Assembly (NCBI GenBank): GCA_947591315.1 | Contig: CANQDD010000016.1 | Location: 1 to 60,264 of the forward strand | Length of the DNA: 60,264 nucleotides | Direction of reading: 5' to 3' | From: an uncultured Clostridia bacterium | Lineage (GTDB): Bacteria; Bacillota; Clostridia; UBA1381 | In this document: positions 7,513 to 47,942 of the stretch, one piece after another | How the letters are laid out: each line of letters opens with the position of its first letter | How positions within the stretch are numbered: the stretch's first letter is position 1 | Made by a program: the position numbers and the translations under genes | Notes under the pieces: generated by a model | What the model was told of the DNA's origin: nothing | Database searches by the model: none | What the model saw: the letters and a program-made list of their open reading frames with translations, nothing else

Positions 7513-8622
7513 TTAGTTTACAATTACAAGCTCTGTCTCCTTGTCGAAGATGTGGAGCTTATTTGTCTCAAACGCAATCTTGATCGTGTCGCCGAGCTTA
7601 GCCGTCGAGCGCTGGTTAACCTTTGCCGTGAAGGGCTGACCCGCAATCTGGAGATACAGGAACGTCTCGCTTCCGAGCATTTCCGTAACTTCAACGTAAG
7701 CCGTAGCAACAGCCTCGGGCTTGTTCGCGATGAACATTTCGTCATCGTGGAGATCCTCCGGTCTGATACCGAGAATAACCGTCTTGCCGAAATAGTTCTG
7801 GAGTTCGGGCGTAACCTTGCCGTCGGGGATTTTGATCTTGTTATCACCGAACGAAGCGTATACGCCGTCAGCCTCTTTTGTAATCACAGCGTCGATGAAG
7901 TTCATCTGCGGTGAACCGATAAATCCGGCAACGAACGCGTTGCAGGGGTTGTTGTAAAGGTTAAGCGGCGTGTCAACCTGCTGAACGATACCGTCCTTCA
8001 TAACAACGATTCTCGAACCCATCGTCATAGCTTCCGTCTGGTCATGCGTAACGTAAATGAACGTTGTCTGGAGCTTGTTGTGAAGTCTCTTTATCTCCGT
8101 TCTCATCTGTACACGAAGCTTAGCGTCGAGGTTTGACAGAGGTTCGTCCATGAGGAATACCTTCGGGCTGCGGACGATCGCACGTCCCATCGCAACTCTC
8201 TGTCTCTGACCGCCCGAAAGAGCCTTCGGCTTTCTGTCAAGGAGATGCTCGATGTCAAGGATCTTAGCCGCCTCGGTAACACGCTTCTTGATCTCATCCT
8301 TCGGAGTCTTGCGAAGCTTAAGAGCAAACGCCATGTTATCGTAAATCGTCATGTGCGGATACAGAGCATAGTTCTGGAATACCATCGCTATATCTCTGTC
8401 CTTCGGAGCAACGTCATTTACAAGTCTGCCGTCTATGTAAAGCTCACCGTCCGAGATCTCCTCAAGTCCCGCGATCATACGGAGCGTGGTTGACTTACCG
8501 CATCCCGAAGGACCTACGAGGATAACAAACTCCTTATCCTCGATATCGAGGTTACAGTCGGTTACAGCCTGGAAACCACCCGGATATCTCTTGTAAATGT
8601 GTTTGAGTTGTAAATCTGCCAT
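7513..8622 (-). CDS. Sugar ABC transporter ATPase, MsmK/UgpC type
   Basis: 369 residues with an N-terminal ABC ATPase and a C-terminal TOBE/OB regulatory region, as in MalK, MsmK and UgpC. Walker [19 protein letters not shown] near residue 37, Q-loop [13 protein letters not shown], signature [16 protein letters not shown], Walker [14 protein letters not shown]-loop VTHDQTEA; the C-terminal half has [12 protein letters not shown]. No permease or binding-protein gene is adjacent, as is common in Firmicutes, where one such ATPase powers several CUT1 sugar importers. The neighbouring galactanase suggests galacto-oligosaccharide uptake, but that is inference. Confidence 0.93.
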
Positions 8623-8779
8623 TTCAAAATTCTCCTCTCGTCTTTTAAGATTTCGTTCGGAATTCCATGCGAAATTCCCTCTTTTAATAAGCGCGTATTA
8701 TGATGTACGCTTTTCGTTGTATATATAATAACATATTTTTTCGGAAAATGTTAGTCGTAGAATACACAAAATTTTTTTT

Positions 8780-8806
8780 ATTCTTTAGTAAAAATAACTA
8801 AAGAAT
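8780..8806. promoter_or_regulatory. Perfect AT-rich inverted repeat upstream of msmK-like gene
   Basis: ATTCTTTAGT and its exact complement are separated by seven bases, about 160 nt upstream of the msmK-like start and 27 nt after the galactanase stop. On the minus strand it is followed by A-rich rather than T-rich sequence, so it is not a good terminator for the galactanase; it could be an operator or a weak terminator. The rest of 8623-8832 is AT-rich with no gene. Confidence 0.4.
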
Positions 8807-8832
8807 AGTCTCTTTTCGTATATTTTGTATAT

Positions 8833-29403: not shown

Positions 29404-29432
29404 TTGAAAATCCTCTCACCCTATGGTACAAT
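29404..29432 (+). promoter_or_regulatory. Promoter of the bacteriocin-export operon
   Basis: TTGAAA, 17-nt spacer, TACAAT; about 85 nt before the lipoprotein ATG. A 19-codon TTG frame (about 29464-29523) ends overlapping that ATG. Confidence 0.65.
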
Positions 29433-29519
29433 AATTTTATCAACGGCACGGAGCAGAGAGGTTTTGAATACGCATCGGACAAGCCGTTTTGGAAAATGCC
29501 GAGGTATCGGAGGAAGGTT

Positions 29520-30661
29520 ATGAAGAAAATATATATATTTTTTGTTGCCGCGATTTTATCCTGCGCGTTATCGGGGTGCTTCGGCGGCAGCGAGGGGCGT
29601 ACCGTTAAAATCGCCGTTATGGGAAATGAGGACGCTTTTTATCCCGGCTACAAAGAGGGTATCGAGAGAGCCGAACGCGACCTGAATAAGGAATACGCGG
29701 ACAGCGGATATAACGTGGAGTGCGAATTTTACAACGACAGCGGAAGCTATGAGGAGGACTCGGCGCTCATTGACGCGGCGGCGGCGGACGAAAGCATTGA
29801 CGCGGTAATCGGTTCGATGGATATGGATATAAGCAAAACTGCCGCTTACGTTTTTGACAACGCGGAAAAGCTGTTTATTATGCCGTTTTTCCTTTATGAC
29901 GACGTGTATGAGGACAACAATTACGAAATGGTGTTCTCTCTCTGCAATTCGGCGCAGACGGTCGGAGAAATACTTAAGCTCGCGTCCGCCGAAACGACGG
30001 CGAAGCGTTGGGCGGTATGCGCCGGAGACGGCAATTTTGAACAGGCGGAGATGAGAGGCTTCCTGCAGTACGGCGCGGACAGCTCAATAAAAACGGTAGA
30101 TTGTGTAAGCATGTCGGCGCTGGAGGCAAACTTTGACGAAATTTACAGCCGCTGGGAAACGCTCGGCGTGGAAGGGGTAATCATGTTCCCGAAATCGGAC
30201 GAGGGCTTTGAAATATTAAAAAAATCAAGAACAAAAATCCCGCGATTATATGCGGCGGCGACACCGCGTTTGACAACAGCACCCTGATGAGCGAGGACAA
30301 AGAACTGATGCAGGCAATGAACGGGTTTATTATTGCCGATGAGTTTATGCTGGCGGATCGGACAGATAAAGACAGTGATATAATTCATGAAATGGTTGAA
30401 GAGTATAGGGCAAACACGGGCAGCGTGTTTGATACATGGTACATTCAAGGCTATAACGCCGTCAGGATTATTGCCGACACGGCAATAAAAAACGAAACGG
30501 TCGATTCCTCAAAAATCGCGGAGATTTTACATAGGGACGGTTACAAAGGCTTGATTGAGAATTTCAGCTTCGACGAGAAGGGCAGACAGGAAACGCAGGA
30601 ATATAAATACAGCACAATCGACGAGAAGGGGTATTCGCATGACGTCAAGGTGAAGAAGTAG
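29520..30661 (+). pseudogene. Type I periplasmic-binding-fold lipoprotein, split by a frameshift
   Basis: ATG 29520 follows GGAGGAAGG. The signal MKKIYIFFVAAILSCALSGC has lipobox LSGC. The mature part reads VKIAVMGNEDAFYPGYKEGI and is a LivJ-like (Peripla_BP_6) fold. In frame it stops at 30287 (255 residues) after garbled sequence; a -1 shift at the A7 run 30218-30224 restores PAIICGGDTAFDNSTLMSED and continues to 30661, total 380 residues. The run is A-AAA-AAA in exact slippery register, so programmed or transcriptional slippage is possible; a one-base deletion is the simpler view. First gene of the exporter operon, so perhaps a peptide or inducer receptor. Confidence 0.8.
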
Positions 30662-30667
30662 GGGGCA

Positions 30668-31552
30668 GTGATGAAGAATTTATTCAGACAGGAAGCGCTT
30701 GACAGCTTCTCATCACATTCGGGAATGAGCAAGGGCATACGCGCCGTACCGATACGCACGGTTATTTATGTGCTGCTGATTTTTATGTTCGCGGCTGTTT
30801 TTGCGCTGTGGCTCTTTTTCGGAACGATTTACGAAACGGTGTCCGTAAACGGCATAATATGGCCCGCTTCAAAGGGCGGCGAGGTCTACGCAAGGTCGGG
30901 CGGTATTATATCGAAGATAGCCGTGTCGGAAGGAAACGACGTAAAGGCGGGCGATATTATCGCGGTTGTTCCGCAGGAGGATATTCTCACAAAAATAAAA
31001 AACGGAAAAGCAAGCGGCATTACGGCGGAGGAACTTGGCAAGCTGTATGACGAATACGACGCGCGCTCGGTTATCCGTTCAAACATTGACGGCATTGTCG
31101 TCTACGTCACGGGCGAAAACTCGTATATTTCCGAGGGCGAAATGGTGGCGGAAATCATTCCGTACGACAAGGACGGCGACAACAAAAAGCTCACCGCGTT
31201 TATTCCCGCCGAAAACGGCGGTCTTATCGCGCTCGGCACTGAGGCGCAGGTAATGCCCGATTTCGCGCCGCGTGAGAAGTACGGCTATATAAACGCGTAC
31301 GTTTCGGGTATTTCGTCGTACCCCGTCAAGGGACAGAGCATAAAGGAAACGGACAGCGATTTGTTTTTACCGTCGCTCGACGAACGGGAGAGCTATCTGC
31401 AGATTGAAATTTCGCTTATACCCGACGCTAACGCGCAGAGCCGCCTTAAATGGTCAAATCCCGACAGCGGAGCGATCGACCTCGCGATGGGAACGATGTG
31501 CGGCGCGGACATAGTGATAGAAAAGTGTCATCCGTACGAGTGGCTGTTTTAG
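30668..31552 (+). CDS. HlyD/NHLM-type bacteriocin secretion adaptor
   Basis: 294 residues (GTG 30668, or ATG 30671 directly after). A single transmembrane helix at about 30-52 (TVIYVLLIFMFAAVFALWLF), then a barrel-sandwich half GGIISKIAVSEGNDVKAGDII and its partner SNIDGIVVYVTGENSYISEGEMV. Between them is only about 40 residues, so the long helical hairpin of classical HlyD is missing, as in the NHLM-type adaptors (TIGR03794). Six nt after the lipoprotein gene, eight before the peptidase exporter. Expected to link the two ABC proteins to the cell surface. Confidence 0.88.
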   Translation: MMKNLFRQEALDSFSSHSGMSKGIRAVPIRTVIYVLLIFMFAAVFALWLFFGTIYETVSVNGIIWPASKGGEVYARSGGIISKIAVSEGNDVKAGDIIAVVPQEDILTKIKNGKASGITAEELGKLYDEYDARSVIRSNIDGIVVYVTGENSYISEGEMVAEIIPYDKDGDNKKLTAFIPAENGGLIALGTEAQVMPDFAPREKYGYINAYVSGISSYPVKGQSIKETDSDLFLPSLDERESYLQIEISLIPDANAQSRLKWSNPDSGAIDLAMGTMCGADIVIEKCHPYEWLF

Positions 31553-31561
31553 GAGGGCGTT

Positions 31562-33700
31562 ATGGAAAAGGTAAAAAAAATACGTCCCATACTGCAAATG
31601 GAAGCGACCGAATGCGGAGCGGCTTCACTGGCTATGATTTTGGCTTATTACGGCAAAACGGTTACGCTCGAGGAATTAAGGCGCGAGTGCGGAGTGTCGC
31701 GCAACGGCGTGAACGCGACAAACATCGTAAAAGCGGCGCAGTTCCACAAGCTAAAGCCGAGGGCGCTGCGCGTGGATATTGACGGCGCGAGGGAGCTTAA
31801 AACGCCCGCCGTTATACATTGGAATATGGATCACTTTCTCGTGCTGTGCGGATTTGACAAAAAAGGCGCGGTGCTTGCCGATCCCGCGTACGGCGTGAGA
31901 ACGGTATCGCCGGAGGAATTTTCAAGGTCGTTTACCGGTATCGCGATTGAGTTTACGCCGGAGGAGGATTTTCAAAAGGACAAGGGCGGTAAAGCCGCGA
32001 ATTATATAATGTCATGCTTGAAAGCCTTTCTCCCCTGCACGGCGTACTTTGTTTTGCTTGAAATATGCGCGCTGATAGCGGGCGCGGCAGTGCTGTTTCT
32101 TAATTCGGTATTCATCGACAAAATTCTCATCGGCGGCAACACGAGCAATTTAAGGATAATACTGCAGGTCATACTGTGCGCCGGACTGATTACGGCAACG
32201 TCCGCGGCGCTTGACGAGCATATAAAGTTCCGTATAGGCAGACAGCTTAATATGCGTATCAATTCGGGATTTATAGAGCATTTGCTGAGGCTTCCGATAG
32301 AGTTTTTTTCTCAGCGCAGCGAGGGCGACCTTGCGAACCGTCAGAACACAAGCATGGAGATGGGCGCAAAGCTTGTGCGCATGCTCTCCCCCATTCCCGG
32401 ATATGTCATGCAGGTAATCGTATATTTTATATTGATAGTTGTGTTTGACATACATATAGCTTTTATCGGAATACTCTGCGCCGCTGCCAACGTGTGCGCC
32501 ATGATCGCAAGCTCAAAAAAGTACGAGGATCAGATGCGCTCGTACAGCCGTGACTTGGGCGCTTTGCAGGGCGATATTTCAAGAGCGATCGACATGGTTG
32601 AAACGATAAAGTCATGCGGCGCGGAGGACGCGATATTCAACCGCCTTACGGCAGCCGGAACGCAGGCCGTAAACACCAAAACGCAAATCGGAAAAACGGG
32701 AGTGCGCGCGGGCAGCCTGTTTTCCTTCATTAACGCGCTCGGTTCGGGAGTGATTCTTATCTCGGGAGTGTGGGAAATACTGTCGGGCGATATGACCGCC
32801 GGTATTCTTATAGCAATGCAGGCTCTTGTCGCCGCAATGCTTGAACCGCTCGGAAATACGGTAAACGCGGGAATAGAAATGCAGACGCTTAACAGCGACG
32901 TGGCGCGCGCAAACGACGTTATGCATTACGGCAGGGACGACAAGTTCCTCGACGACACAACGGATCAGATAAAAAACATCGACGGCGATATAACTCTCGA
33001 AAATGTAACCTTCGGCTACAATCCGCTTGACGAGCCGTTTATAAAAAATCTTGACCTCACCGTGAAAAAGGGCGGGAGCGTTGCGATTACCGGCGGCAGC
33101 GGCAGCGGCAAATCGACCGTCGCGAAAATCATCGCGCGGCTGTACCGCGAGGACGGCGGCAGTGTGCGGTTCGGAGGCACTCCCGCTAATGAGATAAATC
33201 ATTTTTACTTCTACTCCAAAACAGCCGTGGTAAGCCAGAATATACGCTTATTCGAGGGTACGGTGCTCGACAACATAACGATGTGGGACGACAGTATTCC
33301 GTACGACGAGGTGGTTGCCGCGGCGAAAGCGGCGTGTATTCACGATGACATAATTTCACGTAAGGAAGGCTACCGCGAAAGAGTAAGCGAGAACGGCAAA
33401 AACTTCTCCGGCGGACAAAGGCAGCGTATCGAAATTGCCCGCGCGCTCGTAAAAAAGCCGACCGTTCTGATAATGGACGAGGCGACAAGCGCGCTTGACA
33501 CCGACACCGAAGAAAGGGTTATGAACAACATAAAGGCGCTGGAAATTACGCGAGTGATCGTCGCGCACAGGCTTTCGACCATTATGGACAGCGATGAAAT
33601 TATTGTCATGGACAACGGAAAAATCGCCGAGCGCGGTACGCATGAGGAGCTTATGTCGGCGAACGGCATATACAGCTCACTGGCAGGAGGCGTGAGTTAA
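31562..33700 (+). CDS. C39-peptidase bacteriocin ABC exporter (NHLM ABC1 type)
   Basis: 712 residues with the SunT/LagD plan. N-terminal C39 peptidase: QMEATECGAASLAMILAYYG with catalytic Cys18, then IHWNMDHFLVL with His91 and ADPAYG with Asp107. A six-helix exporter domain (about 150-430) follows, and a complete ABC ATPase: Walker A GGSGSGKSTVAK, Q-loop VVSQNIRLFEGTV, signature NFSGGQRQRIEIARAL, Walker B VLIMDEATSALD, H-loop VAHRLST. It should cut a leader peptide after a Gly-Gly motif while exporting the core. All catalytic residues are intact. The next gene starts one base after the stop (33701). Confidence 0.95.
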   Translation: MEKVKKIRPILQMEATECGAASLAMILAYYGKTVTLEELRRECGVSRNGVNATNIVKAAQFHKLKPRALRVDIDGARELKTPAVIHWNMDHFLVLCGFDKKGAVLADPAYGVRTVSPEEFSRSFTGIAIEFTPEEDFQKDKGGKAANYIMSCLKAFLPCTAYFVLLEICALIAGAAVLFLNSVFIDKILIGGNTSNLRIILQVILCAGLITATSAALDEHIKFRIGRQLNMRINSGFIEHLLRLPIEFFSQRSEGDLANRQNTSMEMGAKLVRMLSPIPGYVMQVIVYFILIVVFDIHIAFIGILCAAANVCAMIASSKKYEDQMRSYSRDLGALQGDISRAIDMVETIKSCGAEDAIFNRLTAAGTQAVNTKTQIGKTGVRAGSLFSFINALGSGVILISGVWEILSGDMTAGILIAMQALVAAMLEPLGNTVNAGIEMQTLNSDVARANDVMHYGRDDKFLDDTTDQIKNIDGDITLENVTFGYNPLDEPFIKNLDLTVKKGGSVAITGGSGSGKSTVAKIIARLYREDGGSVRFGGTPANEINHFYFYSKTAVVSQNIRLFEGTVLDNITMWDDSIPYDEVVAAAKAACIHDDIISRKEGYRERVSENGKNFSGGQRQRIEIARALVKKPTVLIMDEATSALDTDTEERVMNNIKALEITRVIVAHRLSTIMDSDEIIVMDNGKIAERGTHEELMSANGIYSSLAGGVS

Positions 33701-35833
33701 ATGAAAACACAGGTAAGAGAAGAAACCGAGCGCATACAGCAAAAAAACCGCGAGGCGCACCGAAGAGCTTATGAAAATATGGAGTCCGCTCTTAACGGAA
33801 AGACGGACTGCGACGGTATTAACGCGATACTTAAATTCCTGAACGAAAAGGAGCGCGTGGACCCGGAGCTTCCCCTTTCGGAGCAGCTTAGCTGCATAGA
33901 GAACCACCTGTTTATAAAAACGCGCTATGTCGAGCTTGACGAGGACTGGTACACATCTTCGGCAATTCCGATGCTCGTGAAAACAACAGAGGGACGCTGG
34001 GTTGCCGTGACGCCTAATTCCGACGGCACGTGTGACTATATTGACGGCGGCGCGAAATCAAAGGTGACGCGTAAAAAAGCAGGTATGTTCACAAACAGCG
34101 CGATGTATTTTTACAAGGTTATGAAAAACGGAAAAATCACGTTGCGCGATTTGATTTCGTTTATTTTGAAATGCTGCTCGCGGAAGGACAGAGTAACCGT
34201 GCTTACGACGGCTGTGCTTACAACGCTTGCGGGAATGCTGCTGCCGTGGGCGAACAGCCTCATTTTTTCAATGATAATCCCCTCCGGAGAGCTGTCGGGA
34301 GTGTCGGCTGCCGCCGCGCTTATATTTTCATCCGTTATGATTTCGTCCGTGCTGGGGCTGCAGCAGTCGCTTATTTTGACAAACACGATGCTGCGCGCGA
34401 CCACGTACGTGCAAAGCGCGGTGTTCTCCCGTATGCTGTCGCTTAAGCCGGACTTTTTCAAGGACGCAAAATCCGGCGAGCTGTCGCAGATGATAATGGA
34501 ATTTTCCGATATTACGCAAATAATATCCGTCAGGAGCATAAGCGCGTGCATCGGTGTAATACTGTCGCTGGCGTACCTGATACAGATTTACGTATACGCT
34601 CCGTCGCTGTTCGGGTTGGTAATCGCGGTGACGGTAGTCCTTTACGCGCTGATGATAGCGGAGGGCATACTGAACGCAAAATGGAGGAAGGCGTATTCAA
34701 AGTCACTGTCGGGAATGTCGGGCTTCTGCTACGAGCTTTTTTCGGGTATCGAGCAAATAAAACTAAGCGGCGCGGAAGCGAGAGTGATGCAGAGGTGGAG
34801 CGAGCGGTATTATGACGCGTCAAAAAAAGAGGACAAACCGTTTTTCTTCAAATATTCCGATGTTATCTACAAGCTGGTAAGAGTGTTTGCCACAGCCGCC
34901 ATATTTTTACTGGGCGCGGGTCTGGGAGCCGCGGATTATATCACGTTTTCGGCTGCATACGGAGCGTACGCGGCTTCAATCGGCGGCGCGGCGGTCATTA
35001 TAGAAATGACGGCGGGCTTCCGTTCCTCGTATTCGCTCATCAAGCCCGTGTTTGACGCCGAATGTGAGGAGTACGGCGGCGGCAAGAAAAAACCCGACAA
35101 GCTCAGCGGCGATATAACCGTGACAGATGTGTGTTTCCGCTACGGGAATAATTCCCCGTACGTCCTGAAAGGATTGTCGGCGCAGATAAAAGCGGGCGAA
35201 AGCGTCGGAATTGTCGGCATGTCGGGCTGCGGAAAATCGACGCTGCTCCGATTGCTGCTCGGTTTTGAAACGGCTGAGGAGGGCAGCATATACATAGACG
35301 GATTCGACATACGCGAGCTTGATTTGAAAAGCTGCCGCCAAAAAATAGGCGTAGTTTTGCAGAATTCGGGGCTTATATCGGGCGATATTTATTCAAATAT
35401 CACAATAACAAAACCTGACGCGAGCAAGGAAGAAGTGAACGACGCCCTACAAATGGCGGCGCTCGGCGACGATATAGCGTCGCTGCCGATGGGCTTGCAC
35501 ACATTGGTCAGCCGTGATAACTGCACCCTCTCGGGAGGTCAGTGCCAGCGGGTTCTTATCGCGAGAGCGCTTATCGCGAAGCCGTCGATACTCATTTTTG
35601 ACGAAGCCACATACGCGCTCGACAACGTTACTCAGGCGAAAGTAATCGCAAACATAAACAAGCTTGAATGTACTAAAATTATAGTCGCGCACAGGCTGTC
35701 CACGGTGGAAAGCTGCGATAGAATTTTAGTTATGGACAAGGGCGTGATCGTGCAGGAGGGAACGTTTGAAGAATTGAAAAACAATGACGGTCTGCTGAAA
35801 AAGCTCGCTAAAAGGCAGTTCCCCGCCGCGTAA
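33701..35833 (+). CDS. Second bacteriocin ABC exporter subunit (NHLM ABC2 type)
   Basis: 710 residues. The first 150 residues are not a peptidase: they are a charged helix and a small domain (VKTTEGRWVAVTPNSDGTC). Then membrane helices (about 165-430) and an ATPase: Walker A GMSGCGKSTLLRLLLG, signature TLSGGQCQRVLIARAL, Walker B ILIFDEATYALD (Tyr where Ser is usual), H-loop VAHRLST. This matches the peptidase-free partner of NHLP/NHLM export systems (TIGR03797), which probably forms a heterodimer with the C39 protein. Its start adjoins the end of the previous gene, and a bidirectional terminator follows. Confidence 0.93.
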   Translation: MKTQVREETERIQQKNREAHRRAYENMESALNGKTDCDGINAILKFLNEKERVDPELPLSEQLSCIENHLFIKTRYVELDEDWYTSSAIPMLVKTTEGRWVAVTPNSDGTCDYIDGGAKSKVTRKKAGMFTNSAMYFYKVMKNGKITLRDLISFILKCCSRKDRVTVLTTAVLTTLAGMLLPWANSLIFSMIIPSGELSGVSAAAALIFSSVMISSVLGLQQSLILTNTMLRATTYVQSAVFSRMLSLKPDFFKDAKSGELSQMIMEFSDITQIISVRSISACIGVILSLAYLIQIYVYAPSLFGLVIAVTVVLYALMIAEGILNAKWRKAYSKSLSGMSGFCYELFSGIEQIKLSGAEARVMQRWSERYYDASKKEDKPFFFKYSDVIYKLVRVFATAAIFLLGAGLGAADYITFSAAYGAYAASIGGAAVIIEMTAGFRSSYSLIKPVFDAECEEYGGGKKKPDKLSGDITVTDVCFRYGNNSPYVLKGLSAQIKAGESVGIVGMSGCGKSTLLRLLLGFETAEEGSIYIDGFDIRELDLKSCRQKIGVVLQNSGLISGDIYSNITITKPDASKEEVNDALQMAALGDDIASLPMGLHTLVSRDNCTLSGGQCQRVLIARALIAKPSILIFDEATYALDNVTQAKVIANINKLECTKIIVAHRLSTVESCDRILVMDKGVIVQEGTFEELKNNDGLLKKLAKRQFPAA

Positions 35834-35840
35834 ACAGCAT

Positions 35841-35878
35841 AAAAAATGACGATTGCAATTTCGCAGTCGTCATTTTTT
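35841..35878. terminator. Bidirectional terminator between exporter and peptide genes
   Basis: AAAAAATGACGATTGC, AATTTC, GCAGTCGTCATTTTTT; A and T runs on both sides serve both convergent transcripts. Confidence 0.9.
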
Positions 35879-35889
35879 GATTTTCCGTG

Positions 35890-36030
35890 TCAAATTTTCT
35901 CTCTCAGGGAGTTGTCAATCTTATGCTCCGGCACGCGCGGTACGTTTTCAAACGCGCCGCCCGTTACATCCTCCAGGTCGTCCAATTCAAGCTCCTGTGC
36001 TTTCTTGTTCTCGTCCTCTTTTTTTTGCAT
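35890..36030 (-). CDS. Double-glycine leader bacteriocin-like precursor peptide
   Basis: 46 codons. ATG 36030 has a near-perfect ribosome site (AAAGGAGG, eight bases upstream). Leader MQKKEDENKKAQELELDD then LEDVTGG: acidic/amphipathic helix with Leu residues spaced as in C39 substrates and a Gly24-Gly25 cleavage motif. The predicted core has 21 residues, beginning AFENVPRVPEHK and ending SLREKI; it has no Cys and a single Ser, so no lanthionine or disulfide is expected, and no modifying enzyme is encoded nearby. It faces the C39 exporter operon across a terminator and follows the giant SLH gene by 15 nt. Most likely the exporter's cargo. Confidence 0.82.
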   Translation of the reverse strand: MQKKEDENKKAQELELDDLEDVTGGAFENVPRVPEHKIDNSLREKI

Positions 36031-36045
36031 TTCTATATCCTCCTT

Positions 36046-39000
36046 TTATTTTATTGTCTTATCAAACCGCTCCGTCAGCGCGGCGGCTTCGGCGCGTGTG
36101 GCGTTGTTTTGCGGTCTTAATGTGTTGTCCGTGTAGCCGCTCATAATACCCGAGCCGCACGCCCACTGTATTGCGGGTACCGCGTATTCGTTCGCTTCCT
36201 CCGCGTCGGCGTAGCTTAGTATATTCGTGTTTTCACCGACCGACACGTCCTTTCCGATATACTGCGCGTACCGCCACAGCATAGCCGCGACCTGCTCGCG
36301 CGTTACCAATTCATCGGGCGCAAACTCCGTATCGCTGTAACCCGAAACTATTCCGTTTTCCGTGCCCCACGCGATATACGGCGCGTAGTACATACCTTTG
36401 TCCACGTCGGTGTACGTCATATCCGCGCTGTTGGGGTTAGCTCCGTTCATGCGTCCTATTACCGTTATGAGCATACCTCTTGTGACATTGGTATTGGGTT
36501 CAAACGTATCCGCACTTACACCCGCGAAGTAGCCCTTTTCGGCTGCATACTTCACGCTGTCGCTGAACCAGTCGGACGGAGTTACATCCTTAAACTGTGT
36601 TTCCGCGGTATTTCCACTGTCGGGTGTAGGTGTTGCGTCGGGTGCGGGTGTTGCGTCAGGTTCGACCGTAGGCTCGGGTGACGCTGTCGGGGCGGGGGTT
36701 GCCTCTGAGCGCCGTGACGCCGCGCCCGAACCCGAACCGCGCGGTCTTGATGTCGGTTCAGGCTCGGCTTTACTCGGTGTTACCGTTACCGTTATATCGG
36801 GTATCGCATTGCCGTACGGAGTGACGTTGCCGTGTATCATTGTTGTACCTTCGCTGAGCGCCTTAAGCGTCGTGCCGTCGAACGCCGCGACCGCCGCGTC
36901 GTCCGTACCGAGAGCCGCGCTCATTCCTTCGCTGAGCGTGCTCGGCTCGCACGTTATGTTAAACTCCATCGTCTCGCCCTCGGTGAGCTCTATTTTCTCC
37001 GGGAACGGCTCGCCGTTTAACATGAATTCCATCGGCATCGCTGCGGTAAGAGAAATATTTTCACCCTGCGTTACATATTCTCCGTCCTTATCCTTGCCTA
37101 ATAACAGACAATCCACAAATCCGTATTTTTCAAACGGCTCCGCAACGGCGTTTATATCTATCGTAAAGCTTTTGGTTTCGCCGACGCCTATTCCGTCCAT
37201 TGCAGCCTTACCCCAGTCGCACTCGTCAACCGTATAGCCTGTGGCGGCTCCGTACGGACCGGAGAAAATAACGTTCATCGTGTCGTCCGATTTTGACGGA
37301 ACATTGCCCGTGTTCGTTATATTATATTTGACATGATAACCGTTGCTGTCCTGATACGGATAAACGTCATCCACAATATATTGAGGCTTATCTTCAAGCC
37401 TGTCACTCTCATAAGACGATACATTTTCCATACCGCCCTCTTTCACTTCGGCAATAAGGCTTACGCCTTCTGCGCTTGAGGGGGCAGTCCATTCAAATCT
37501 CAAAGTATCCGTGCCGGAGGGGAGCAGCTTACTAACGCTGTTAAGCGTATATATCGGCTCACCCTGCTTTTCACCGTTTTTAGCCTCGTAAACGTTTAAG
37601 GTATAACCGTCTGCGTAAGTAAGACCGTTGTTTGTGACGTCGACGTACACATCTACCGTGTCGCCCCCGCACGGAGTTTCGTCGGACAGCGTTATATCCG
37701 TAACATCGACCGCTCCGCACGGCGTCATATACGAAGCCATGAGCTTAAAGTCGCTTATTTCAACGGGGTTTTCGGCGTTATCGGTTATCTTCTGCTTAAA
37801 GCTGTTATACATAACCATGAGGCTTCCGCTGTCATCTATCACGGCATTGGGTTCATCGGTGAATGCGCCGGTGTTTGTCAGCCTATATGCCGGCGCCCAC
37901 GCGGAGCCGATCTCCTCGGCAGTCCCGTTCGGGTCGGACGACGGTATCGGATCGTTTTGAATTAAAGCCGTCGCGTATATCTCGGTTCCTTGCTTTTCGT
38001 TAAAGTCGTCCGTGTCCTTATCCTTCGTTTCGGGCTGTGTCCAAACGACATATATATCGTCACCGTCCGTCACCGCCTTAAAGTCAGCCATGTACCGCGT
38101 GTTATCCGAATTTTCGGCAGGCATCGCGACATAGGAGTAAAGCGAGTCAATATCCTTTACCTCATTGCCGTCTGCGGTTTTGAGATACTCATCCTTGATG
38201 TGACCGTCATTGTCAATGCCGTCGCGTACGAGCGACGTTATGTCTATGTACGCGACAGTCCTGTCGTCTCTGTACCAGAACAGCTTTGTATCAGCCGCTT
38301 CCGCTTTTGTCGTTTTGGCTTCCGGATGCTCGGCAATAGCTTCGGCAAGCGCTTTGTTTTCCGTTCTCACGAACTGCGGCAGGGCGTCACTCACGTTGTC
38401 GTCCGTAATTCTTACCGGTTTATACGTCGTGTGCTTCTCAAAGTCGTAGCACTGCACGAACAGCTCTTTGTCGTTAGCCGTATCACCGCTCGAATCTTGG
38501 TCGATCGTGTACGCGTAAACGGCTATACCGTTATACGTTATCGCCGTGAAGTCGGACACGTTCGGAACATCAAGTCCCAGCTCCGGCAGCGGCGACGACA
38601 GGAAGCGCTGTCCGTGCCATTCGTTTATGAGAGTTTCCTTTTCATCTTCCGTGCTGCCGTTTCCGTTGCTGTCGGACAGTTCTTCGGGGTAATACTCGTC
38701 GACCATCCACTTGCTCTTATCGGCGGAGTACAGCATATATATAACGGCGCAGTCGTTCGTGTAGGAATTAGCCAGATCCGCAGCCGTTCCCTCGGAATTA
38801 CCGGTTTTTACGTAATATACCGCTCTGTCGTGCGTCTTTTCGTCGTAGACACAGGTGGGGTTGTAATCGTAATACTCATCCGTTGTAAGACGCGTTTCCC
38901 CGCTGACCGTACCGGTTGCGGGATCTATTACGGCAGTGTAGACCTCCAAATTCCTCAAATAATCGGCGGAATCCTCTGTAGTCGCCTTATCGGGATCGCT

Positions 39001-42000
39001 CGACAGCCACGCAATCATCACCTTGCCGTCCTCGATCTCGCATACGCTCGGCTGGAAGTCAGCCTTTTTATCGTCCTGAACAATTTTAGGATCGCTCCAT
39101 GTACCGTCCTTATATACCGCGTATTTGAGGACGGTTCTCTCCGTTGCGCCGCGCGATGTGTCGGAGTCGAGGAATGCTGCGAAAACACTGTCATCGCTGA
39201 GCTTTATGAGCTGCGTGTCGGGATGCTCGTAAGCGTTATCCACTATCGTCTCGCTCGATGCTTCACCGAACGCCGACATAAGCGAAATATCGCCGTCGGG
39301 ACGCCATTCGCTCTTTTCGTCGCTGTACGGCTGTCTTACGCCGAACGACGGCTGCTCCTCAGCGCTCATAAGCGCCGTATCGTCCGTATTGCTGTTCAGA
39401 TTCGGTCCGTTTTCGTATTGCTCAAACATACCGAATTTTATGTCGGGGAATTCGTACTGCAGCGGTATGGAGAACAGGAACAAATCTATCCACGCTCCGA
39501 GCGTAAACACAAGATCGCAGCCCCAGTCGTCATACCCGGGATCCTGACCGGTGAATTCAAATACGCCCATAGCCGTAAACGTGCCTCCGGCGCGTACGCC
39601 TATCGTTCCGGCAAGACCTACTCCCGCGTAGATCTGAACCGTTCCGGCAATCTGTATCGACGCTTGGGATTTTCCGAGCTTATTCTGGAAGTCTACAGTG
39701 GCATTATGCGCGTCCTCATAGGTTATTTCCGGCTTGCTTGTATCGGTTCCCGCGCCGAAAAATCCGAGCAGGTAGGCGCCCAGCTCCAAACCGAAATACG
39801 CCGGTATATATACTACGGGAATAATGGTGTAATGTGCTCTTTTGACGTTCGCGCTCGCTCCGACGTATGCGCCTACTCCCGTAAATACGGCGGCATTATT
39901 GTTGTATCCCGTTGTACGGTTCAATATATTCACGTATGTGAAATCAAAGTATATGCCCGCCTGAACATCTACTTTCCACGTCGGCGCGCCGAGAGCGGCT
40001 GCCGCGTCCGGCAAAGAATTGTTCATCATATTGTTGAACGCTTCGTTGTACGCCCGTTTAATACCGTCGGTAAAGGTCTGTATCGGATGCCTTGCCGAGA
40101 ATAAATCCTTATAATATCTTCCGGTGTCCCCTTGGTACTGGTTCATGTTCATATCCTTAACAGTGTCCACGATCTGAACCGGACTGACGCCTATATACAT
40201 TCTGTATCCGGTAGGCGTCTTTATCGAGCCGACCGACACAAACGGCAGATCAAGTCGCATCGCCGTGGTGCCGACAAACGGAAGGCTTATAAAGTCTATA
40301 TCCGCCGGTATATCGATGTGCTGCAGCACGGGTACCTCCTCGGTCGTCTTTTGCAGGAACGTGTAGCCTGTAAACACATCGGAGTACGTGGTTGTATTCA
40401 TCGCGTCATCATTTGAGGACGAGGACACCGCCGACTCCTTCCGCTGCTTTGACACCTCGGAATTTATTCCGTGCGTTTTATCGGTCGTCACTCGCATGTA
40501 AAGCCTGTAACCGGGAATTGCCTTTTCGAGAGGAATATATCCCGTAAAGCTGCCGTCGCTGTTCTTTTCCGCTTCGCATGAGGCGATCTCGGCATTGGTA
40601 TCGGGATCGCATATCATGAACTTAATGCCGGTCACGCTTTCGTCCGCGTTGGGGCTTTTGATGATATTGCCGTATTTGTCCATCTCCACCTTGGTGTATT
40701 TGATCGGCTCGCGCATTCTCGCGGTCACCGACACCTCTTCCCCGTCAATTACAAGATTGCTGCCCTGACTTGGGTTGTCGGTCGTCAGTTCTATGTTGTT
40801 TATTATCGAACCGTTCTCGGAGTTTATCCGAAGCTGTCCGAGATCCTGGTCGCACACGGAAACCGTTCTGTTTACCTTGCTGCCAGTTTCGTTATTTGCG
40901 AAAACGACCTCGCGCTTTTCGCTTTCCACGTACGGAAGTTCCATTTCACGCAGGCTGCTCTGACCGTTTAGCTCTATCTTATACCGTATGTAATGCCGCG
41001 CCGTTGAGCCTTCGGTGTTGCACGCCGCGCGGAACGGCGCCGTAGCAAAGCTGCCGTCCTCTTCGACCGCCGCGAACTCACCGCCGATGTTTACTATCGC
41101 TCCCTTGGCGGGGATAGCGTTTGACGTACCCGCGCGCCGCGTCATCATATTAAAGCTTGGCATATAAACGCTGCCCTTGACCGACTGGTATATATCCTCC
41201 CCGCTCTCCTCAACGTACGAGAGCGTCACTATATTATTTTCGGGAACGTTTGACGCTTCGTGGAAAAACGCCTCACCGCCGTATAATTTGTCGTCATTCC
41301 TTTCCTTCCATACGGGATAGACGCTGCTGCCCGCGTCGTCCGCCATACGCACCGACAGGGTGTATATCTCTCCGTATATGGGGTGCGACTCTATGACGTA
41401 CTCATAATATTCTTCGCCGTCGATAGTCGTTTCCGACATGACCGGCGAATTGAAAAATCCGTACGAAATATCGAATTTCGGCAAATCCGACTTCTTTACA
41501 CGCAGAGTAAGCGCGTTGTCGTTTCTCGTAAAGAGCGGCGTTATCTCGTAATAGCCGTAACGAAGTCTCTCGTTGTCGTCAAGATACGCGCTCGTTCCGT
41601 TGTCCTCGGTGTAGGGCACTATAACGTCTCTCTTTACCCAATTCGTATCGGACTCGTTATATTTGTAGCTGACCTTGTATCCCGCGGGAGCGAAAAGGTC
41701 GGAGTATTCGTCCCTTACGACCGAGGAAATCTTTAAAACATCGCCGAGGTGGTACGTAAACGTCTGCGAAGTGGATATATCCTTGTCCTCGCCGCAGATT
41801 TTTAAGTATCCGAAATCGCCTTCGGGAAGGTTGATTTTTACTTTCGCGTCAATATAGCCGAACTCGGGCTTTAACTCGATTCTTCCGCGCAGACCGAATT
41901 TTCCTCCCGTCTGGTTCTCCCAATCCCGTGAGCTGTTGTTTTCCTCTATGCTCAGCACGCCCTCCTTATACATTTCATCGACCTTTTCCGGCGTCAGCGT

Positions 42001-42235
42001 GTACGTGTGCGACGTAGCTCCGTCGTCGGAAAAGCTCGCTATCTTCATTTGCTTGCCGTTCTTTACCGCGTACACGTTTTTCAGATATGCGTAAGGCGAG
42101 GTGACGTTTCCGCCCAAGGTCTGCTGGAAGGCGATAGAGTTTTTGCCGTCCTTCGTATAGCGGATAAGCTGGTTATTGTTTGTGTTATCCGAGCCGGCAA
42201 GCGCAAGGAACGTCGGACTTTGCCACGGTGAGCGC
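36046..42235 (-). pseudogene. Giant SLH-domain surface protein, C-terminal part (frameshifted)
   Basis: About 2,060 residues remain in this frame. Beta-rich repeats fill the first two thirds, including a domain with many aromatic residues near AHYTIIPVVYIPAYFGLELG, and a CARDB-like domain (VDVTDITLSDETPCGGDTVD). A Pro/Thr/Glu linker (about PTASPEPTVEPDATPAP) leads to three SLH repeats (FKDVTPSDWFSDSVKYAAEKG; YTDVDKGMYYAPYIAWGTEN; ILSYADAEEANEYAVPAIQW), which bind pyruvylated cell-wall polymers. Frame is lost near 42200-42240; upstream the reading continues in another frame. Read together it is a cell-surface protein of over 2,300 residues. The peptide gene follows 15 nt after its TAA. Confidence 0.85.
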
Positions 42236-43098
42236 GCCCTCGCGCTTTATCTCAACCGTAACGCTGTCGCCCTCCGCGCTGTATGTTTCCTCTGTAAATC
42301 CGACCTTTGAGGGAGGTTGTACCTCGTCGTCGGCAATCGTAAACGCGCAGCTTGACGACGCGCTGTTTGTCGTAGTTCCGTACGGATTGGCGAGCATAAA
42401 GAAGAAACGTCTGTCGCCGTCTCCTTCATCATTATCGTCAACGTCTATCGCTATGTATTTTTCCTTTTCGCCCTCCGCGAAACCGACCGTAAGCGTCGCG
42501 CCCACAACGACGTTTGTCACAACGTTCGCCATCTGCTGTATCTGCTGCACCGTGTCGGTCGTGGAGGTCACCGCCTGCGGAGCGCCCTCTACGCCCGTAT
42601 ACGCCGCACGCGCTCTCTGAAGGGGGCTGACGGAAAGAGTTTCGCCGTCCCCGTCCGCCGCTTCCTCCGCGGAGAGCAGACCGCTTTGCTCCTCTATGTA
42701 GTCGATAGCTTTCTGCACTCCCTGCTCGGTAGCCTGCTGAAGTTCCTCGTCATTTTTGAGCATTTCGGCGTACTCCTCCTCCGTTTTCAATTCGGATTCG
42801 GTGTATTCCTCGCCCTCCATGCGCTCGATAAGAGATTGGTTGCCGTCGGGGTTGTACGCCTCTTCGCCGCCGTACACGGATACCGTGTAATCCTTTCCGT
42901 ATTTGGCTGTCAAATCGGAAATTTTTACCGTTACACCCGATTCCGACGCGCAGTCTCCGCCTCTGGCAATGCGCAGAAGGTATCTTTTGTTCGCGCCTTC
43001 CTCCAGCCGGGCGTTGGCTGCGGTGAGATAGAACACGTCGCTTGAAAGTATATCCTCCGTCATTTCTATTTCGGGAATGTACTCGTCCGTTTTCTCGG
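42236..43098 (-). pseudogene. Giant SLH-domain surface protein, N-proximal part, 5' truncated
   Basis: Continuous protein-like frame from about 43098 (EKTDEYIPEIEMTEDILSSD) to a stop at 42185, in a different frame from the rest. Contains Calx-beta-like segments (GVTVKISDLTAKYGKDYTVS and FTEETYSAEGDSVTVEIKRE). The expected signal peptide and start are missing: at about 43095-43101 the sequence passes directly into the opposite-strand GLUG gene. The nominal ATG at 43177 lies within that other gene and is not credible. Confidence 0.75.
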
Positions 43099-44868
43099 CG
43101 CAACCGGCGTAATTAAAAATCTGACAGTGGACGGCTCTGTGACCGGCGGCAATTATATCGGCGGTATCGTGGGACAAAACAACTCCGGCACGATCGAAAA
43201 CTGCGCAAGCTCGGTAACGGCGACGGGAAAAAGATATGTCGGCGGTATAGCCGGTCAGAACAATGCCGGCAGAATAACGGACTGCTCCAATTCCGGCTCA
43301 ATTTCGTCCACAATCACGACACACACCGCGTCAAGCTCCTACATCGGCGGTATAGTCGGTCAAAACAGCGCGGGCGCCGCGTCAACCGGAGCTTTAAGCG
43401 GGTGCCACAATACCGGCGCTATATCGGGCAGTAATTATGTCGGCGGTATAACGGGATACACCACCGCGCAGACAACAATCTGCTATAATACCGGCTCTGT
43501 ATCGGGCAGCGGCTATATCGGCGGCATAACGGGATTTGTAAAGGGCGCGCCGATACCCGGCTCCCTTTTGCCCGACGACGTAACCGACACTTTACTGACA
43601 GACTGCTATAATACCGGCGCCGTCAGCGGAACCGTCAGATATACCGGCGGCGTGGTAGGACAGATCGCGGCAGGCGGCACTGTGGAAAGCTGCTACAATA
43701 CCGCGGATGTAAACGGCGCGTTGATAGTCGGCGGCGTGGCGGGACACGTAAACGGCAGCAGGGCGGCTCTCAGATGCTGCTATAACATCGGTAAGCTCGA
43801 TGGAAGCATGAACATCGGCGCGGTTGTCGGACAAAATTCATCCGGCACTGTAGAGTATTGCTATTATCTGGACGGCGCTGCCGGTAAGGGAATAGGCAGC
43901 GGCGGCGGCAGCGCCGAAGCGCGGACCGTACCCGAATTTACAAACCTGATTTCGACCTTGTCCTCGTCATCACACGGCGGCTGGGTCGGCTGCGGCACTA
44001 TAGACTTTATAAGACCCGCGCTTGCCTCAAACAGGGAGGTTGTTGACTTTACGGCTACCGAGGAAAATCCTTATATTATCGACGGCATGGACAGCTTCAA
44101 CAAGCTAAGGAGCTATATGCTCAATGTCGGTTCCGTAAAAGGCAAGTACTTCAAGCTCACATGTAATCTATTAACCAAAAATAATAATATATACATCCAG
44201 GGAAATTTCGACGGAGTATTTGACGGCGGCGGTCATTCCATATATATATACGAGTATGTTGTCAATCATCCGCTGTTTAACAATGTCGAGGACGGCGGCG
44301 TTGTAAAAAATCTGAATATTTACAAGAGTCCGTATCCTTATCCGTCCAGCGGTACAAACGAAGCCTTTATTGCGGCACGTGTCAAAAGCGGCGGCATAAT
44401 CGAAAACTGCCATGTCAGCGGCACAATGACTTATTCCATCTCTTCCAGCAGTCCGAGAAATTACAATTACGGAGGCGTCGCCGCGATAGTTGACGCGGGC
44501 GGAACGATTAAAAACTGCGTAAATGAATTCGGCTTTACTTTGACAAGTAATAACTGTGTGGCTTACATCGGCGGCATCGCCGGAGAAAACAACGGAACAA
44601 TCGAAAACTGCATCGGCATGGCAGGGTACTATGGTTTGTCTTTCAGCCGCGGCAGCAGCACGACTGTCAACGCGGCTTATGTCGGCGGCATTGCCGGAAA
44701 AAACACCGGAACAATACGGAATTGTCTGAATATAACCGCAATTCCGAATCAGGAGAATGTGACCGCAGGCAGTATCGCCTGTAACGACGGCGGCATTATT
44801 GAAAACTGCTATTATGACGCGGACAGAACACCTACGGTAACGTCCGGCGACAAGGGCTTGGGAAAAAC
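43095..44868 (+). pseudogene. GLUG-repeat surface protein, fragment 1, 5' truncated
   Basis: Starts in mid-domain: GATGVIKNLTVDGSVTGG is the normal inside of a GLUG protein, with no signal or ribosome site. About eight GLUG motifs follow (YIGGIVGQNNSGTIENC, YVGGIAGQNNAGRITDC, YVGGITGYTTAQTTICYNTG and others), a pattern of secreted adhesin-like beta-helix proteins. After SGDKGLGKTA (about 44860) the frame becomes meaningless, and true coding resumes in the next frame as GEGGASWSPIGIEGNKF. Confidence 0.75.
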
Positions 44869-47150
44869 GGCGAAGGCGGCGCGTCATGGTCTCCTATCGG
44901 AATTGAGGGCAATAAATTCGAGGGCGTTTTTGACGGAAACGCTCATGAGATAAGCGGATTATATATAAACGCTCCGGATACAAAATATCAAGGTTTGTTC
45001 GGCTTTGTCGGCACAGGCGGAACCGTGAAAAACCTGACCGTTTCCGGCACCGTCACCGGCAAACAATATATCGGCGGTATCGCAGGACGCATCGATGAGG
45101 GCGCGGCAGTATACGGCTGCGTCAACAAGAGCGAGGTTTTCGGCGACAGTCAGTTCGGCGGCGTCGCGGGTATAAATTACGGCGTTGTGACAAACTGCGC
45201 CAACGCCGGAAACATCGGCGATAACAAAAACATAGGCACAGACAGTATCTGCGGCGGTATTTTGGGTGAGAACCGCGGCGGCATAACAAGGTGCGTCAAT
45301 GCGGGAACAGTCGGAGTGATGTATGCTGACGAAATAAAAGGCGGCATTATAGGATATAACGCTTCCGAAAACACCGCAGCCGACTGCTATTATCTCTGGG
45401 GAGGCACTGGAAGCATAAAGGGCGTCGGCCGCGGCACCGATAACACAAAAAGAGTTAACTCCGCCTCCAGACTTAAATCAGGCGAGACAGCGTGGCTTTT
45501 GCAGGACGGTCAGGACGGCCTTGTCTGGGGACAGAAGCTCGGAACTGATGACTATCCCGTACCGACGAGCGACAGCGGCAAGCAGGTGTTTAAGGTTACC
45601 TTCGCAACGCAGTCAAATCCGAATTTTGCCGAGCGTTACGCCAATCCGAACGGCACTGTAACGCTGCCGGACGCTCCCACGGCGGAGGGGCAGGTATTCT
45701 CGGACTGGTCGCCAAATCCCGGAAGCGGCAATATTTTTGATGAGAACACTCCCGTAACCGATGATATAACCGTATACGCGTCCGAGCGCACTCCCTTCGG
45801 CGGCGAAAGCGGCGAGATCCCGCTCGACACGGTTTACGGCGAGGGTGTTACGGCTGATTTGTCCGATTACATCGCTTACGGAGATACGACCGATACGGCG
45901 GATAAATTTACATACACGATCGAGGAAGGCAATACAATAGGCGCGTCGGTAAACGGCGACACGCTTACCGTTCCGAAGGATACCGGCGCGGGCGAATACA
46001 CGCTGAAAATCAAAGCCGAAGAAAAAGCTCCGCTGTTCAATCTTATGAGCGTTGATGATTATGGCTTTGAGCCTGTGACGCTGACGATTAAAATAACCGT
46101 CGCGAAAGCCGCACCGACGGCGTCCGTTCAGCCCAACGAGCTCGTGTTCAAGGACAGGGAGCAGTATCTTGTAACAGGCAGAACCGACGACGGAACGCTT
46201 GTATACAGCACGAGCAAAGACGGCGATTATTCCGAAAAAGTACCGACGGGCAGTGATGCCGGAACGTATACGGTCTGGTACAAGGTGATAGGCGACGAAA
46301 ACCACACCGATTCCGAGCCGCAGTCCGTAGAGGCTGTTATCAGAAACATTGAAAGCATAAGAATTGAAAGAGAACCTGACATCACCACCGTTATTGAGGG
46401 TATGCCGCTCGACACGTCGGGCTTGGTAGTAATCGCCGACTGCGGCAACGACGAAACCTTTGAGGCAGCAGGCTATACACTTTCGGGCTACGACACATCG
46501 GAACCGGGCGATCAAACCGTCACTGTAACCTACGGCGGTAAAACCGCACAGTTTAATATAACGGTAACGCCGAAATCGCTCACGGGTATCGAGCTTACGC
46601 ATACGCCCGACAAGCTCATATATTATCAGGGTGATGAGCTTGATTGGAGCGGTATGGTGATCACTGCGGTTTATGACAATAACACGACCGAGTTTGTTGA
46701 CAGCGATGCCTGCGTTATCGAGGTAGCCGAGTTCTACGGCGGCAAGCGCGCGATAATCTCATGCGCTACTGACGACGCGGAAATTTACTACACGATCGAC
46801 GGAACCGATCCGACAACAAGCTCGGATAAATACACAGCTCCGTTTGAATTGACCTCCAACGCGGATATAAAGGCGATAGCCGTAAAAGCCGATATGGACG
46901 ACAGCGACGTCGAGGAGCAGCTCGTAAATGTTGAGAAGGTCGCGGCTCCGAAGGCGAACGTCAAGGGCGAGGTGGAGGTCGGAACGGCTGTGAAGCTGCT
47001 CTGCTCAACCTCCGGCGCGGAGATTTATTACACAATCGGCGATTCGCTGGACGAGAACAATTACAAGAAATATACAGACGACATAATAATAACAGGAAGC
47101 ATGACAATACGGGCAATCGCCGTAAAGCGCGGCTGTGTAATGAGCGACGG
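44869..47150 (+). pseudogene. GLUG/InlB-like/Ig-like surface protein, fragment 2
   Basis: Continues from GGASWSPIGIEGNKFEGVFD with more GLUG repeats, an InlB/Listeria-Bacteroides type repeat (FKVTFATQSNPNF, VFSDWSPNPGSGNIF), two bacterial Ig-like domains of the Big_3 type (IRIEREPDITTVIEGMPLDT; IELTHTPDKLIYYQGDELDW) and two chitobiase-C-terminal-like repeats (AEIYYTIDGTDPTTSS, AEIYYTIGDSLDENNY). A frame break at about 47150 separates it from the tail. The first credible residues have no start codon, so it depends on fragment 1. Confidence 0.75.
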
Positions 47151-47942
47151 TGTTACATTATACCTACACCGTAGCGCCGCCAGAGGAGCAGAGCGGAGAA
47201 GTAAACCGCGCGCTGCTTGAATTGGAGGAGGCGGCATGGCAAAGCCGGCGACACCTTCAGCCTGCCCGCGTATATATATTCCGAAAGCGAGGTAAGCGAC
47301 TTCCGGTTTACGCTCGAGTACGACAGCGACCAATTTGAATATCTCGGCTTTAAGCCGGGCGAGGATATGTCCGCATCGTCGGTATCCGTCACAACAGATG
47401 AAAACAGGGTGACGGTGCGCGGCACGCAGGGAGGAATAACCGGCTGCGAGGCTTGCAGGCTTGAATTTAAGGCGAAGCCGGATATTGATTCCGGAGAATA
47501 TATTTTGCCGGTAAGCGATATCGAGATCAATGCCGCCGAAAAAAATCTGACCGACGTGTATTATACGGACGGTTATGTCAGGATAATATCCGAGGACGCG
47601 AAAATTTCCGCGGGCGCGTTTCTCTTCAACTCCGACAACGATGTTATAGAGGATGTGTCAGAGATAAGCGGAACCTTGTCGGCAATGATATTGGCGGACA
47701 TTGCGGGCTTGCCCGAGGACGAAAGGGTGACAAGCTTTGACGCGATCCTCGCGTTCTACGACACGAACGACGCGCTCGTCACGCTGAGCACAACCGAAGC
47801 GGAGATGAGCGATGACATTGATTGCTTCATGGTCGAAAATATAGCTATCCCCGAAAACGTCGAAATCGGCGGAGTAAAGCTGATGATATGGGACGGTATA
47901 GACACTGCGAAGCCGCTTGCGGCAGCCACGCCTGTGCTGTAG
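47150..47942 (+). pseudogene. Cohesin-like tail of the GLUG surface protein, fragment 3
   Basis: TLHYTYTVAPPEEQSGEVNR (frame 47150) runs for about 85 nt, then a second shift at about 47235 leads to AGDTFSLPAYIYSESEVSDF, a cohesin-like beta domain (FTLEYDSDQFEYLGFKPGED). It ends with a small domain finishing VKLMIWDGIDTAKPLAAATP, the same kind of ending as the galactanase and the 1,629-residue surface protein. A terminator follows. Together with fragments 1 and 2 it was once one secreted protein of about 1,600 residues or more. Confidence 0.72.

Follow-up and report, generated by a model that had tools for sequence, protein, structure and literature searches.

Double-glycine peptides are usually classed as bacteriocins or signals. 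What, then, is the role of such a peptide when its gene lies beside one for a giant surface protein? The question is raised by the window analysed here, a 60,264-nucleotide stretch of DNA from an uncultured Clostridia bacterium of the gut (contig CANQDD010000016.1), in which a C39-peptidase ABC exporter faces a 46-codon gene with a double-glycine leader end. Genome comparison across several families of uncultured Clostridia points to another role, in which the small peptide is exported to act as partner to a giant surface protein. Judged from sequence, the locus is a real and conserved peptide and export cassette, a variant of double-glycine peptide export of which the most notable element is a matched giant surface protein.

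Organization of the export locus

The exporter genes and the small gene that faces them comprise the following parts, given with coordinates in the window and strand.

29404-29432, plus strand: promoter-like TTGAAA-N17-TACAAT ahead of the exporter genes (sequence motif, weak by count)
29496-30661, plus strand: binding-protein-like lipoprotein (Peripla_BP_6), in two frames (29496/29520-30287 and 30287-30661)
30668-31552, plus strand: short HlyD-type adaptor; best family TIGR03794, score below the cut-off
31562-33700, plus strand: C39 peptidase/ABC exporter (ABC1); best family TIGR03796, score below the cut-off
33701-35833, plus strand: peptidase-free ABC exporter partner (ABC2); best family TIGR03797, score below the cut-off
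35840-35879, no strand assigned: terminator hairpin of 17 pairs between the convergent genes, T-rich on both strands
35890-36030, minus strand: double-glycine peptide gene, 46 codons, AGGAGG upstream (ORF, homologues)
35956-36030, minus strand: leader, 25 residues, ending LEDVTGG, hydrophobic at -12/-7/-4
35893-35955, minus strand: predicted mature core, 21 residues, AFENVPRVPEHKIDNSLREKI (putative cleavage)

The initial annotation, made from the letters and translated reading frames, holds for the HlyD adaptor, the peptidase-free ABC partner, the bidirectional terminator and the convergent 46-codon gene with its ribosome site and LEDVTGG leader. The promoter that it had proposed is likewise present as a motif, but this is weak by itself: because the region holds 9 promoter-like sites against the 7.7 expected from shuffles, we regard the promoter as no more than plausible. 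The residues reported as intact in the C39 domain, Cys18, His91 and Asp107, are all there and are invariant in 21 of 21 aligned exporters. Among solved structures, ABC1 matched an ABC-type bacteriocin transporter, PDB 4ry2, which we take to be PCAT1, over residues 6-705 (E 3.4e-93), and the ComA structure 8hf7 over residues 12-708 (E 8.4e-81).

The lipoprotein had also been read correctly as binding-protein-like; its gene, however, is split between two frames, and is one ORF at every locus outside the window genome where both halves were matched. Its lipobox cysteine is kept by all 24 relatives aligned, and its nearest PDB chain is an extracellular ligand-binding receptor (4mlc, E 5e-37), followed by branched-chain amino-acid-binding proteins. 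It stands beside all 17 exporters of at least 50% identity for which upstream DNA was available. Our guess is that it might capture the peptide or serve as an extracellular chaperone.

A conserved double-glycine peptide gene

A filter for ORFs of 30-100 codons with a GG motif and 5 or more of 6 matches to a ribosome site returned a single match in the 60 kb window, the 46-codon frame. Homologues of the 46-residue peptide were found in relatives in a search of 61 genomes, and a profile built from 15 homologues detected the peptide in 17 of 70 genomes of the family; a match in G033 (E 0.03 / 0.008, within a 621-residue frame) and a truncated remnant (G005:C27) were left out of the peptide counts. 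The peptide was not detected in the 25 genomes outside the family in an order-wide search of 95 genomes, and a class-wide search of 391 genomes returned 8 with the peptide, 5 of these in other families. The precursor of G205, a genome of another family, is nearly identical to that of G090, and transfer or contamination is therefore possible for G205. Over the 66 pairs of 12 genes of the type designated A below, whose synonymous sites are nearly saturated, pN/pS was 0.24 for the core and 0.34 for the leader. By these comparisons, the 46-codon ORF is a real conserved gene and not a chance reading frame.

Positions -12, -7 and -4 before the Gly-Gly pair are hydrophobic in 27 of 28 peptides (the exception is L037), 27 end in [KNR] followed by I, L, V, A or T, and none has a cysteine in the core. 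The signature of PCAT substrates, as set out in the sections of the source used here, includes Ile/Val at -12, Met at -7 and Val at -4 (PMC12184118). Seen by eye, the core is charged, contains proline and has no hydrophobic stretch.

The window peptide matched no Pfam and no NCBIfam family. Of 22 members, 15 weakly matched the ComC model (best E 0.001), and some weakly matched bacteriocin models (E 0.0049 for type-A lantibiotic, 0.014 for class IIb and 0.02 for class II). These last matches, the Gly-Gly leader with its C39 exporter and the bacteriocin-export names that the exporter families carry would suit an unmodified class II-type bacteriocin, for which the lipoprotein (or the giant) would be an immunity or display factor. 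We consider such a bacteriocin quite improbable: the window peptide itself matches none of the bacteriocin families, the charged, proline-containing core without a hydrophobic stretch speaks against it, and the gene is nearly always placed behind that of a giant surface protein, as described below. Moreover, conservation of the cores extends to paralogues and to other genera, and bacteriocins usually vary more than this.

Co-occurrence of peptide and exporter

An orthologue of the exporter, called where the C39 region matched at E<=1e-45, is present in 18 of the 70 family genomes, and all 17 genomes with the peptide are among them (Fisher p 2.3e-15, uncorrected for the relatedness of the genomes). 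Seven more family genomes gave weaker C39 matches only (27-44% identity), and no peptide was found in them. The one exporter genome in which no peptide was detected, G033, is 79% complete, and its contig stops just after ABC2. Close linkage does not explain the pairing in G005 or G018, where the peptide gene is found on one contig and the exporter on another (35 to 274 kb); the split contigs of G012, G072 and G084 probably reflect assembly breaks within the cassette, and G029 and G031, also split, may belong to either group.

The initial annotation had staked its reading on finding, next to related exporters, a small gene that keeps this leader; the search did return such a gene, in 17 of 70 genomes, and the reading survived. 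The annotation's view that the C39 exporters have a cognate double-glycine peptide without cysteines is borne out: 17 of the 18 exporter genomes have the peptide, and 27 of 28 peptides have the leader hallmarks. The exporter might still have some other true substrate, with the small gene a linked passenger, as the exporter orthologue of G033 could suggest. Given the same two counts, the inclusion of the unlinked G005 and G018 in the first, and the purifying selection on the gene, we hold a passenger to be very improbable indeed. From the leader and the co-occurrence, we infer that the peptide is probably cut and exported by this dedicated exporter.

A giant surface protein precedes the peptide gene

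Next to the peptide gene, on the same strand, lies the gene for the surface protein:

36046-43120, minus strand: gene of the giant surface protein, encoding three SLH repeats and split between two frames (36046-42246 and 42185-about 43120)
38137-39819, minus strand: region common to 12 aligned giants, propeller-like by eye

The SLH surface protein had been recognized from the outset and its three SLH repeats are present, but the gene is frame-broken and the signal-peptide region is missing. The closest relative has about 0.67 kb extra where the window giant is without this region, and the two segments aligned to that relative overlap by 15 bases at the window junction. The frame breaks in the window giant and lipoprotein may be real or may be assembly errors. 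Intact relatives of the giant have a signal peptide (by eye), and the two complete giants that were scanned contain 2 and 3 Calx-beta stretches, with three SLH stretches apiece. The region common to the 12 aligned giants has 21 invariant columns and no strong Pfam or PDB sequence match; the best E values of its profile against solved structures were 0.54 and 0.99, and in Pfam one member matched a legume-lectin domain (E 0.0068).

The genes for the lipoprotein, HlyD, ABC1, ABC2, the giant and the peptide form a co-directional row on one contig in 8 of the 17 peptide genomes (G001, G006, G015, G020, G068, G075, G083 and G090), which makes the lipoprotein and the SLH protein, once thought unusual in such company, regular members of the cassette. 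The convergent orientation first described for the peptide gene stands for the window and its nearest relative, G008, the only two places where this layout was seen, whereas in those eight genomes the gene comes last in the row. The convergent look of the peptide gene in the window and G008 comes from the orientation of the giant and peptide genes, which together point towards the exporter.

Directly 3' of a giant, or of a giant's visible 3' end, lie 26 of the 28 peptide genes; the exceptions are in G029, where another frame lies between, and at L037, where the peptide follows ABC2. A scripted count over 23 peptides (the 21 of the family set plus L044 and L037) placed an SLH-ended frame, the ends being judged by eye, directly upstream of 20 at gaps of 1-100 nt, including three (L123, L125 and L128) whose upstream gene is visible for 201-515 codons only; a 21st, L121, abuts a giant. 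All five peptides from other families are directly 3' of a giant. Inspected by eye, these giants end in SLH at L158 and L159, show no such end at L160 and L161 and appear sortase-like at L162, where the peptide is kept although the end appears to be of sortase type and not SLH. On these by-eye endings, the SLH anchor was dropped as the link between peptide and giant.

The core tends to follow the giant

Peptides were assigned by eye, from the core, to type A (FDNVPRVPEHxID and variants) or type B (SIKDVxYTxTTxIS), and giants to types A and B, plus a type C in two genomes, by blastp to two references. Strong type-A N termini (E<=1e-40) were detected in 11 of the 70 genomes, and type-A peptides accompany them in 10; type-B N termini were detected in 5, each of which carries a type-B peptide. 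The remaining type-A giant is that of G093, in which neither a peptide nor an orthologous exporter was found; in G018 a type-C giant goes with a B-like core. The core of G090, type A by eye, has 33-43% identity to A and 25-40% to B, and so is not clearly nearer A. Distant type-A-like N termini (29-36% identity) are present in G004, G014, G025 and G063, which have no peptide; giant-like proteins thus occur without it.

Compared with G068, G083 has identities of 88% in the lipoprotein (SBP), 92% in HlyD, 78% in ABC1 and 81% in ABC2, against 28% in the giant and 33% in the core. Compared with G012, the values are 59% in the giant and 67% in the core, with 53-68% from SBP to ABC2. The exporter tree likewise cuts across the types, grouping G083 (type B) with G068 and G084 (type A) at a support of 95/90; this grouping is the only one relied on in a tree of 21 rows with 7 of 18 inner branches open and several long end branches.

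In an identity table of 8 of the 17 peptide genomes, picked for near-complete cassettes and with two giants partial (2550 and 2002 residues), the identities of core and giant correlate with r=0.77 (exact Mantel p=0.008), whereas those of the core and SBP, HlyD, ABC1 or ABC2 give r=0.10-0.16 (Mantel p=0.14-0.24). In the same genomes a leader that follows the exporter finds no support, with r=0.02-0.04 for leader and exporter and a weak r=0.43 (p=0.013) for leader and giant; a tidy split of leader with exporter and core with giant is not borne out, as the leader also tracks the giant, not the exporter. The exporter itself usually adjoins the giant as well, yet without co-variation.

Across these comparisons, the core tends to follow the giant and not the exporter. 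Giant and peptide are adjacent, and linkage could therefore cause part of the co-variation.

The same table bears on a peptide pheromone, in which the core would be a quorum signal, the giant and exporter its output and the lipoprotein its receptor. Short unmodified double-glycine peptides from C39 transporters are often signals, according to the sections of the source used here (PMC7595303), the weak ComC matches fit, and every exporter of at least 50% identity with upstream DNA is accompanied by the binding-protein lipoprotein. Yet the core and the lipoprotein show no co-variation (r=0.10, p=0.24), which leaves a type-specific peptide receptor unsupported; no sensor kinase or regulator was seen among the operon genes read, and the cores are well conserved inside a type. 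We regard a pheromone as unlikely, if the readiest of the alternatives, and both it and a bacteriocin as less likely than a partner of the giant. For the original choice between bacteriocin and signal, we find no positive evidence beyond weak leader resemblance.

A proposed surface complex

The frequent adjacency and joint change of peptide and giant suggest that they act jointly at the surface of the cell. With somewhat better than even confidence, we favour an exported, unmodified core of about 21 residues that is the partner of its own giant, the two being products of a surface-protein/peptide export cassette. The giant would be made with a Sec-type signal peptide and anchored to the cell wall through its SLH repeats, while the small gene 3' of it would encode the 46-residue precursor with its Gly-Gly leader. 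The C39 domain of ABC1 would recognize the conserved positions of the leader and cut it off, and ABC1, ABC2 and HlyD would export the unmodified core. Once outside, the core may act with its own giant, as a bound ligand or as a small subunit for folding, assembly or activity; we infer this physical pairing from the gene comparisons.

A more specific proposal, which we advance tentatively and at slightly under even confidence, is a surface complex supplied by two routes. The giant Calx-beta protein would arrive by Sec and the matched peptide of about 21 residues by the peptidase-ABC exporter, as an obligate subunit or ligand; giant and peptide would be exchanged jointly, as one module, with the exporter left in place, in several Clostridia families and with SLH or sortase-like anchors.

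If the partnership is true, a synthetic core should bind giants of the matching type only. Such exporters should, as a caution, not be labelled automatically as 'bacteriocin export'. A literature search pairing double-glycine with S-layer homology, outside which most subscription papers lay, returned nothing; one on Calx-beta and double-glycine returned one review, on calcium-dependent proteins; and one on Monoglobus with S-layer homology and surface found none in the literature searched.

Comparison with known systems

The locus had been assigned to the NHLP/NHLM export systems, and its gene set is indeed like the one described for them (PMC2887384): HlyD, a peptidase ABC and a peptidase-free ABC protein occur together, and each window protein has the corresponding model as its best NCBIfam match. 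The assignment does not hold, however, at the level of scores or leader. ABC1 reaches 751.9 of the 853.3 bits set for TIGR03796, ABC2 593.5 of 709.4 for TIGR03797 and HlyD 128.3 of 156.2 for TIGR03794; the leader is a short double-glycine one, and neither the window peptide nor the family listings of the 22 members (E<=1) gave an NHLP or Nif11-type leader match. Because all three scores and the leader fall short, we do not file the locus as an NHLP member, although it may work like one. Unlike NHLP/NHLM clusters, the locus has no nitrile-hydratase/Nif11 leader match and no modification enzyme was seen among its operon genes, and its cassette has an extra lipoprotein and giant surface protein.

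With the C39 exporters PCAT1 and ComA, the window exporter shares full-length homology, intact catalytic residues and a substrate with the leader hallmarks; it differs in having two ABC proteins plus HlyD and a substrate tied to a giant surface protein. The pneumococcal peptides VP1 and BriC are double-glycine peptides with non-killing roles, in biofilm development, but they are regulators, and the sections of the source used here mention no dedicated giant surface protein (PMC7595303).

MAM of Faecalibacterium duncaniae, as described in the sections of the source used here, is a double-glycine-leader cargo of a Clostridium-cluster gut bacterium, co-occurs with a PCAT and is proposed to end up and remain in the cell envelope, a precedent for an exported cargo that would stay at the surface (PMC12184118). 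It differs from the window peptide in that the cargo comprises residues 23 to 135, self-assembly is proposed and the protein is confined to one genus, again according to those sections (PMC12184118). The window system instead sets a peptide of about 21 residues beside a separate giant protein.

The repeat-rich neighbour and a remnant of the peptide gene

Adjoining the giant SLH/Calx-beta surface protein gene (the giant), which usually lies directly upstream of the 46-codon double-glycine (GG) peptide gene, is a second surface-protein gene:

43127-47942, head to head with the giant, in three frames: repeat-rich surface protein

By eye, this protein looks GLUG-like; it was assigned to no family. 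Similar sequence adjoins giant–peptide units at five loci (L102, L103, L104, L110 and L112). On contig G005:C27 (locus L020/L105), we observed a remnant of the peptide gene with its 3′ part retained, abutting an opposite-strand fragment of the GLUG-like repeat protein; the same contig carries the chloride-channel-like and LysM-type neighbours of the window (named by eye). This arrangement suggests recombination at the site.

Frame breaks in the window copies

The lipoprotein gene of the exporter cassette (29520-30661) contains a frame break that was not observed in copies from other genomes, and the aligned lengths of the window and its nearest relative differ by one base over this stretch; the break could be either real or a sequencing error. 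The giant gene is also broken, within 42117-43177, and its divergent start region shows an apparent loss of about 0.67 kb relative to L102, the closest relative; the aligned segments overlap by 15 bases where they join. This could represent an assembly collapse.

Additional giant–peptide loci and distant cassettes

Four genomes carry a second giant–peptide locus apart from the exporter (L017 in G008, L018 in G015, L019 in G001 and L007 in G006), with similar predicted mature cores, all type A. At L159, the peptide of the giant–peptide unit is nearly identical to that of G090, a genome of a different family. ORFs resembling a relaxase and a transposase piece by eye lie nearby (7612-9364), and the unit may therefore travel on a mobile element, as judged from these likenesses. 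In L162 (9645-16142), a giant of the group described here ends in a sortase-like C terminus (by eye) that replaces the SLH repeats, with a GG peptide still directly after it.

Distant lipoprotein-type exporter cassettes include additional genes: an LGT family gene (L073 and L037), an MFS gene (L073 and L044), an LPG_synthase_C gene (L044) and, upstream of the lipoprotein in L037, six consecutive GG-peptide genes.
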